64,000 bases of DNA, taken from Halosimplex salinum. GTDB taxonomy: Archaea > Halobacteriota > Halobacteria > Halobacteriales > Haloarculaceae. Under the pieces are notes generated by a model. It did not search any database and had not been told where the DNA came from. It saw nothing but the letters and a program-made list of their open reading frames with translations. The translations under genes were made by a program, and so were the position numbers. Below, one piece after another: positions 27,508 to 28,950 of the stretch. Every line of letters starts with the position of its first letter. Position 1 is the first letter of the stretch. The DNA lies in the NCBI RefSeq assembly GCF_003730195.1, contig NZ_QWGG01000001.1:372001-436000 (forward strand). The letters are read 5' to 3'.

Positions 27508-28284
27508 TCACTCGGACGCGCTCTCCGCGCCGCTCTCGTCGGACGACTGCATCACTTCGGTCGGGTCTCGGGCGCGGAACGCCGGCAGACTGGGGTCGCG
27601 GTGGGGGTTCCGGCCGAACGCCGCGCCGCGGAGGTCCTGTTCGTCGAGCTGGTCTCTGAGCGTCCGGTCCAGCCGGTTGACGCTCGTCACGTCGAGTCCG
27701 ACGATGTCCAGCAGCGTCCGGTAGCGGGGGTCGTCTTTGATCGAGTCGAACCGCTCGTGCAGGTCCGCTAGCGACTCCGGCGGTTGCTCGGCGATCCAGT
27801 CGGTGTCGTGGAGTCCGAGGATCCGCTGGCGCTCGTCGTCGACGACGTGCTGGATGACGACGAGCGCGACCTTCTGGATGGCCCGCTGGCTCCCGAACAC
27901 CGTCAGGTCGAGGTCGGTCATGATACCGAGCGCCCGGTCGCGCTCCCACGGCGTCAGGCCGAGCCGATTGCAGAAGGCGTGCGTGATGCGCGCCTTCTCC
28001 AGTCGGTGCATCCGCTCGCCGTGGCCGGCCATCGCCGGGTGTTGCTCGTCGTGGAGCCGCCGGAGGTTCTCGCCCACGTCCTCGTCTGGATGCTCCGGTC
28101 GACCGATGAGCGTCGCGCTCGGCGTCGTCACGTCCCACCGGCGGAACGACTCGTCCTTGACAGCCTCGACTCGCCCGAGTGAACCGTCTCCCGGACGGGT
28201 GCTCACCTCCCGTTCCGCTCGCGGATCGACCGGCTCGCTTCGGGCCCGGAGCCCGTCGTCAGCCGCGTCACGTCCCCCGTTCAT
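27508..28284 (-). CDS. rpoeps: DNA-directed RNA polymerase subunit epsilon-type protein (haloarchaeal)
   Basis: 258 residues. The central part, WDVTTPSATLIGRPEHPDED, then LHDEQHPAMAGHGERMHRLE, ALGIMTDLDLTVFGSQRAIQ and VALVVIQHVVDDERQR, matches what I recall of the haloarchaeal subunit annotated as epsilon, which has no counterpart in other archaea. Its role in transcription is poorly defined. The start ATG at 28284 lies 24-33 nt after TATA-like CTTTCTATAG (28308-28317), so the N-terminus begins MNGGRDA. Upstream lies an array of five promoter-like repeats. The first ~45 residues are acidic and variable. Confidence 0.65.
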   Translation of the reverse strand: MNGGRDAADDGLRARSEPVDPRAEREVSTRPGDGSLGRVEAVKDESFRRWDVTTPSATLIGRPEHPDEDVGENLRRLHDEQHPAMAGHGERMHRLEKARITHAFCNRLGLTPWERDRALGIMTDLDLTVFGSQRAIQKVALVVIQHVVDDERQRILGLHDTDWIAEQPPESLADLHERFDSIKDDPRYRTLLDIVGLDVTSVNRLDRTLRDQLDEQDLRGAAFGRNPHRDPSLPAFRARDPTEVMQSSDESGAESASE

Positions 28285-28358
28285 CTCGTCGGGCTTCGCC
28301 CTCTGGACTATAGAAAGCACCGGCTGACGGTCGAAATTGACCGCAGAACCGCACGACC

Positions 28359-28397
28359 CCTCTTACTATATCCCGTTGTGACGAGAACTACTTAAAG
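28359..28397 (-). repeat. 39-bp promoter-like repeat, copy 1
   Basis: On the minus strand the unit starts CTTTAAGTAGTTCTCGTCAC and ends TATAGTAAGAGG-like (here ATAGTAAGAGG). This copy is nearest to rpoeps, 75 nt from its start codon. It differs from the consensus at one base in the GGGG block (GGGATATAG). Confidence 0.9.
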
Positions 28398-28485
28398 AGC
28401 GCCCCGGCCGACGTTGTGAGCGGCCACGGGACCCGACCGAGTCACGACGGACGCGTCGCTCGGAGTCGAACTACGCCGCAGAACT

Positions 28486-28524
28486 CCTCTTACTATACCC
28501 CGTTGTGACGAGAACTACTTAAAG
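28486..28524 (-). repeat. 39-bp promoter-like repeat, copy 2
   Basis: Matches the consensus throughout: minus strand CTTTAAGTAGTTCTCGTCAC followed by AACGGGGTATAGTAAGAGG. The left flank on the minus strand continues AGTTCTGCGGCGTAG. Confidence 0.9.
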
Positions 28525-28641
28525 GCCTGTCGCGAGCAAGCGCCCCCCAGTCGTCGGCCACCGTCGGGAGCCGGCCGGTCGTGTCTGTGGCCGCTACCCG
28601 AACCCAGCGGTCGCTGGTCAAAACGAGATCTCAGAAAACTC

Positions 28642-28680
28642 CTCTTACTATACCCCCTTGTGACGAGAACTACTTAAAGG
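28642..28680 (-). repeat. 39-bp promoter-like repeat, copy 3
   Basis: One change from consensus, in the GGGG block (AAGGGGGTATAG). The minus-strand flank continues AGTTTTCTGAGATCTCG. Confidence 0.9.
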
Positions 28681-28779
28681 AACGATGGCCTCAGTGGACC
28701 CATCCGCAATCGGCTATCGGCCGGCCGTCGAAGCGAACTGTGGCCGCGTCGCTGATCGATCGCGATGTCGCGAAGAACT

Positions 28780-28818
28780 CCTCTTACTATACCCCGTTGT
28801 GACGAGAACCACTTAAAG
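28780..28818 (-). repeat. 39-bp promoter-like repeat, copy 4
   Basis: One change from consensus, in the TATA-like block (CTTTAAGTGG). The minus-strand flank AGTTCTTCGCGACATCGCGA can form a short hairpin. Confidence 0.9.
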
Positions 28819-28911
28819 GAGCGAACGGCCCAGCGACTCAGTCGTCGATCGTTCGACCGTCGGTATAGGTGGGGTAGGCGTCGCTGACGAATCGTAGTAC
28901 GACGCAGAAAT

Positions 28912-28950
28912 CCTCTTACCATATGCCGTTGTGACGAGAACTACTTAAAG
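28912..28950 (-). repeat. 39-bp promoter-like repeat, copy 5
   Basis: The most distant copy from rpoeps. It differs from consensus in the GGCATATGGTAAGAGG part. The minus-strand flank ATTTCTGCGTCG...CGACGC can form a 6-bp hairpin. Confidence 0.9.

Follow-up and report, generated by a model that had tools for sequence, protein, structure and literature searches.

What are the five near-identical 39-bp repeats that stand ahead of rpoeps, the gene for RNA polymerase subunit epsilon, in Halosimplex salinum, and which factor, if any, reads them? The question was raised by a first-pass annotation of a 64,000-nucleotide stretch of this genome (that whole stretch is called the window here), which took the repeats for tandem promoters reading into an rpoeps-type gene. 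We have examined the repeat unit in the window, in other haloarchaeal genomes and in relation to the epsilon protein.

The array and the anatomy of its units

All five units lie on the minus strand between 28359 and 28950, oriented toward rpoeps. The features of the locus, from the most distal unit to the gene, are the following.

28912..28950, minus strand: putative promoter unit 5 (farthest from the gene); three bases away from the commonest form; predicted start ~28920 (+/-2), from the TATA spacing and an alignment of 256 copies
28780..28818, minus strand: putative promoter unit 4; one base away from the commonest form; predicted start ~28788
28641..28679, minus strand: putative promoter unit 3; one base away from the commonest form; predicted start ~28649
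28486..28524, minus strand: putative promoter unit 2; identical to the commonest form; predicted start ~28494
28359..28397, minus strand: putative promoter unit 1 (nearest to the gene); one base away from the commonest form; predicted start ~28367
28309..28316, minus strand: TTTCTATA box, candidate separate leaderless basal promoter; centre 28.5 nt ahead of the A of the rpoeps ATG
27508..28284, minus strand: rpoeps, gene for RNA polymerase subunit epsilon; 258 aa when read from the conserved ATG

The commonest form of the unit in the window is CTTTAAGTAGTTCTCGTCACAACGGGGTATAGTAAGAGG, and the five units differ by 0-3 bases, with a mean pairwise identity of 94% as against 35-36% for flanking 39-mers. 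The first-pass annotation had thus described the repeats correctly, including four of their five start coordinates, the third unit beginning at 28641 and not at 28642; its estimate of largely unique spacers of 88-117 bp was close to the measured 88, 116, 100 and 93 bp, and the weak homology that it had perceived beyond the units is real, since the sequences 3' of the units are weakly alike (AGTTCTGCG..., CAGCGACGC), a likeness that recurs after distal units in sister species and fades by about +45. Its naming of the downstream gene was also right, because plasmid-borne homologues with 60-63% identity over 81-84% of the RpoEps protein carry the annotation 'DNA-directed RNA polymerase subunit epsilon'. 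The rpoeps reading frame in the program-made list is 270 aa long and begins at an upstream GTG at 28320; the conserved start is the ATG at 28284, which leaves a leader of about 83 nt from the predicted start of unit 1. When the whole Halosimplex genome (5.07 Mb) was searched with up to 3 mismatches, the five copies of the window were the only ones, and a reversed-pattern control of the unit gave no match anywhere in the same 5.07 Mb.

Each of the seven other Halosimplex genomes searched carries one to four units upstream of rpoeps, and the offset of the proximal unit from the gene in the window is that of most of these sister species. More widely, a weight matrix was run over the fetched flanks of rpoeps at 80 named loci, drawn from many genera of haloarchaea. 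The unit was present at 74 of them, with scores of 17-60 bits compared with at most 8.4 in shuffled loci, and it lay no more than 1 kb upstream of the gene at 70. Tandem arrays (2-5 units within 1 kb upstream) were found at 32 of the 80 loci, the five-unit array of the window being among the largest seen; the spacing from unit to unit had a median of 132 bp and a minimum of 84, and no helical phasing of this spacing was detected across the 80 loci. On rpoeps-bearing plasmids the unit is upstream of the gene in two and faces its 3' end in a third. Units pointing at the 3' end of rpoeps occur at 10/80 loci; at L097, L098, L100, L104-L106, L111-L113 and L118, one to three opposite-strand units lie just past the gene and run antisense into its 3' end. 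Three genomes (G237, G277 and G283) have 3-4 rpoeps matches each.

The anatomy of the unit was derived from 256 non-redundant copies from many haloarchaea, which align without gaps. The 5' part carries a weak CCGnnnnGTYC; the TATA element TTTAAGT that comes after it is nearly invariant and is followed by two loose positions and then YTCTSGYNRCAANG. Between TATA and start lies a specific YTCTSGYNRCAA block, the end of which is the -10 'WW' element, AA occurring at -11/-10 in 253 copies. An AG stands three positions ahead of the inferred start, and the expected start position is occupied by TA, or by TAG in the Halosimplex type. This initiator-like TA lies 26-27 nt 3' of the TATA box, the start itself being inferred from the spacing, and a pyrimidine-purine step is found there in 210 of the 256 copies. 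Past the inferred start the sequence is G/A-rich to about +9, with conservation fading by about +18. The start region is rigidly conserved and not one copy contains an indel.

Measured against the published haloarchaeal promoter consensus (BRE CGAAA, TATA TTWT, -10 WW; PMC4983044), the unit lacks the BRE alone and keeps both TATA and -10. The absence is complete, as GAAA is missing from the 12 nt upstream in all 256 copies, the usual haloarchaeal BRE being CGAAA. A core promoter that drew its specificity from the interval between TATA and start would look like this. The TATA-type box, the -10 AA, the initiator-like TA, the fixed spacing throughout the alignment and the recurrent arrays make it well supported that the window units are tandem promoters reading into rpoeps, although promoter activity is inferred and transcription start data are lacking. 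The first-pass picture of tandem promoters stands to this extent; what it missed is that the unit is no merely local feature but an element of rpoeps-bearing genomes, and that it is without the usual BRE. In all nine genomes examined (all eight Halosimplex and one further), the midpoint of the TTTCTATA box lies 28.5 nt ahead of the A of this ATG, and the box likewise has no CGAAA. Its placement fits a leaderless transcript, and together with the upstream array it may fit a circuit with a basal and an autogenous input, in which this separate promoter might supply basal rpoeps expression; this remains an inference.

Distribution of the unit and of rpoeps

A sequence-only model of the unit (R1) and a profile of RpoEps (A1) were run on the same set of 292 Halobacteria genomes, with orthologues of rpoeps accepted at E below 1e-70. 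The set of unit-bearing genomes and the set of genomes with an rpoeps orthologue were identical (122/122), and the unit was found in none of the 170 genomes without one. The search of the unit over haloarchaeal genomes, proposed as a check in the first-pass annotation, ties the unit to rpoeps by co-occurrence. The annotation had held that a dispersed element unrelated to rpoeps would refute its reading: there are only the five copies in the Halosimplex genome itself, and in some other genomes the unit is indeed dispersed over many unlinked loci, yet it is confined to rpoeps-bearing genomes. The formal co-occurrence p-value of 1e-85 is inflated by shared ancestry, and for this reason contrasts within clades weigh more. 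In genus g34 (seven genomes), two have rpoeps together with units, 10 in one genome and 4 in the other, spread over several contigs, and five have neither; among the family-f4 genomes listed, only G157 has an rpoeps orthologue, and it carries eight units on several contigs. A phylum-wide scan of 295 genomes added one marginal match (E = 9e-4), about what chance would give. Weakly diverged units in genomes lacking rpoeps might have escaped the scan filters. Viral contigs contained no exact match to a narrow pattern of the unit core, and scans for conserved peptides revealed no RpoEps relatives in them. Taken together, the co-distribution in the 292 genomes suggests a private promoter class linked to epsilon.

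The RpoEps family is present in a subset of the haloarchaea. Fifteen genomes contain only distant RpoEps homologues (L027 in G053, and 14 others; E 1e-12 to 1e-56), and the unit is absent from all of them; judged from sequence, these homologues may form a second branch of the family that does without the unit element. Certain short plasmid proteins of haloarchaea that resemble the distant homologues are annotated as hypothetical (hits H5-H9).

Complete mapping of 18 genomes placed 69 of their 112 unit copies more than 5 kb from rpoeps, and the three genomes of genus g4 that were examined (L305-L307) have no unit at rpoeps and 1-4 elsewhere, so the unit is not merely a piece of the rpoeps locus. 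Copies at unlinked loci with unrelated flanks were more alike within a genome than between genomes (mean identity 0.834 vs 0.614), a difference reached by none of 2000 label shuffles. Such agreement is expected if a single trans-acting factor per genome reads all the copies. Two caveats apply: the genomes are related to one another, and recent copying may have gone undetected, a possibility that the flank filter addresses. RpoEps itself would be the economical candidate for this factor, its recognition of the units being inferred.

Nearly all unit copies are intergenic. The genes that follow units away from rpoeps, named from their translations and not by database assignment, include serS in Halorhabdus-like genomes, prs, an acetyltransferase and a KDPG aldolase; in Natrialbaceae the unit precedes a gene adjoining rpoeps that, named in the same way, encodes a nucleotidyltransferase. 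A single common regulon was considered and rejected, as targets other than rpoeps vary by genus and many of these units have no obvious reading frame downstream. Many point at the 3' end of an opposite-strand gene and not at a start codon. In G253, a trio of similar small genes (L296, L298 and L302; TRAM-like as judged by eye) shows one arrangement throughout, a unit of the epsilon type pointing at the gene's 3' end from 75-76 nt away, which suggests a duplicated cassette of gene plus antisense promoter.

Epsilon and the explanations of the unit

Epsilon is a component of the Halobacterium RNA polymerase (OE_1279R) and was reported to be needed for efficient transcription of native templates by the enzyme (Madon and Zillig 1983, as cited in PMC8305020). 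In that source, a 2021 review of open annotation questions, co-purification of epsilon with RNA polymerase is given as known for Halobacterium only, and the relevance of the subunit, which was discovered in the Halobacterium enzyme more than 40 years ago, is described as still enigmatic (PMC8305020). RpoEps had no match in Pfam or NCBIfam, and its profile gave only chance-level matches to sequences of solved structures. Membership of the TFB/TFIIB family was rejected at the sequence level, there being no Pfam match and no similarity to the eight TFBs of its own genome (hhalign probability 0.2%). A search of the Halosimplex genome (G000) for TFIIB repeats returned 25 matches, in about a dozen TFB-like genes. 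AlphaFold2 models of RpoEps form a helical bundle (pTM 0.58 for the whole chain and 0.70 for its core alone), and the best Foldseek matches, dominated by cyclin T, TFIIB and Brf2, are weak (E 0.2-3, TM 0.33-0.42). The models thus point only weakly to a cyclin-like fold, which is a lead and not a result.

The explanation that we prefer, while giving it no better than an even chance, is that the unit is the core promoter of a dedicated class, used with the help of epsilon and placed in tandem at rpoeps for the control of epsilon's own gene. Each 39-bp unit would be a complete core promoter, composed of a TATA box, the specific block between TATA and start, and an initiator, and the haloarchaeal RNA polymerase would use it with the help of RpoEps. 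Epsilon would most likely be an accessory specificity factor, reading the sequence from -20 to -10 and around the start site as a substitute for the absent TFB recognition element, and through the tandem units it would control its own gene; in other genera the same promoter may also serve a few further genes or non-coding transcripts. Transcription initiation at the units, epsilon as the recognising factor and a positive effect are all inferred here, from units whose tandem repetition, fixed architecture without a BRE and strict co-occurrence with rpoeps are directly observed. More doubtful, though possible, is the proposal that epsilon is a true promoter-specificity subunit: epsilon-bearing polymerase would read a private core promoter, made up of TATA, YTCTSGYNRCAA and the start region and devoid of a BRE, in a sigma-like manner that does not rely on TFB or TBP paralogues, and would feed back through the tandem copies. 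Several points speak against the preferred explanation. Data on transcription starts, binding or expression are lacking, RpoEps is not similar to TFB in sequence and has only the weak fold matches given above, the co-occurrence could stem from another factor travelling with rpoeps, and many copies away from rpoeps face the 3' end of an opposite-strand gene instead of a start codon.

In the Halosimplex genome, moreover, the unit serves rpoeps alone, which would fit homeostatic (negative) control no worse than activation; for this reason negative autoregulation is the strongest rival. Ordinary TATA promoters would here carry an operator, and RpoEps, alone or in RNA polymerase, or a partner, would bind the TATA-to-start interval, repress transcription and hold epsilon constant, the tandem copies giving a steeper response. 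The conserved block does sit where archaeal repressors are generally known to block RNA polymerase, and some genomes have arrays at both ends of rpoeps. We nevertheless regard this as unlikely, if by no means negligible, since an operator on an ordinary promoter needs no loss of the BRE and would not require a start region so rigid that indels never occur, and serS and prs would be strange genes for a purely silencing loop to act on.

Another transcription factor, inherited together with rpoeps, could instead recognise the units, with epsilon merely one of its targets. Co-distribution alone cannot separate such partners, and the comparison of the 292 genomes did not extend to their gene content; still, no second gene is regularly found at these loci (rpoeps is in 76 of the 80, the next commonest gene in 36), and the exact match holds within genus g34 and for the lone holder in family f4, so that we think this distinctly improbable. 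Less credence still can be given to the suggestion, also made in the first-pass annotation, that there are five small-RNA genes sharing one promoter; in other genomes, on this view, the same promoter would drive antisense RNAs. It could draw on the weak conservation of early transcribed sequence to about +45 after the distal Halosimplex units and on the many units elsewhere that face a convergent gene, rpoeps included, but it found no structural support: 17 early transcripts of Halosimplex units shared no consensus structure and were not unusually stable (folding z-scores from -1.2 to +1.4), the window had no Rfam match, and the spacers diverge freely. That the unit is a small mobile element which happens to carry a promoter is barely credible, in spite of the genomes that hold copies at many unlinked loci, given that flanks are dissimilar beyond the 39 bp and the fading early-transcript stretch, that none of the 170 Halobacteria genomes without rpoeps has a copy, and that viral contigs contained no exact copy of the narrow core pattern.

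The unit among known promoter systems

The literature searched contained no description of the unit, nor of any promoter element or target gene set for epsilon. Our findings go beyond the first-pass annotation in pointing to a putative dedicated class of core promoter whose occurrence coincides with that of an RNA polymerase subunit, recognition by epsilon and the sign of the control remaining inferred. An element confined to epsilon-bearing genomes provides a candidate DNA target for epsilon and a ready list of promoters. If epsilon does read the unit, archaea possess promoter selection by a subunit of RNA polymerase, and the missing BRE would suggest a route by which epsilon could assume part of the work of TFB.

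The unit resembles the haloarchaeal basal promoter (PMC4983044; Brenneis 2007 cited there) in its TTTAAGT TATA element, in the AA at -11/-10 and in an inferred start some 27 nt downstream of the TATA centre. It differs in having no CGAAA BRE in any copy, and in possessing the weak CCGnnnnGTYC together with many further, strongly conserved positions from TATA to about +8. Haloarchaeal rRNA operons have several near-identical tandem TATA promoters, and the array resembles them as a row of near-identical TATA promoters ahead of a gene for the transcription or translation machinery, with the difference that the gene served here encodes a subunit of RNA polymerase. Outside the array the Halosimplex genome has no copy of the unit, and hence its rRNA operons have none. 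Alternative specificity factors can control their own genes, as in bacterial sigma-factor circuits and among the paralogous TFBs of haloarchaea. The unit class is similarly confined to genomes with one RNA polymerase-associated factor and stands ahead of that factor's own gene, whereas RpoEps has no sequence similarity to TFB, its action on the units is untested, and TATA and -10 are kept. The protein encoded downstream of the array corresponds to the epsilon of Halobacterium (OE_1279R), and its homologues are annotated as epsilon.
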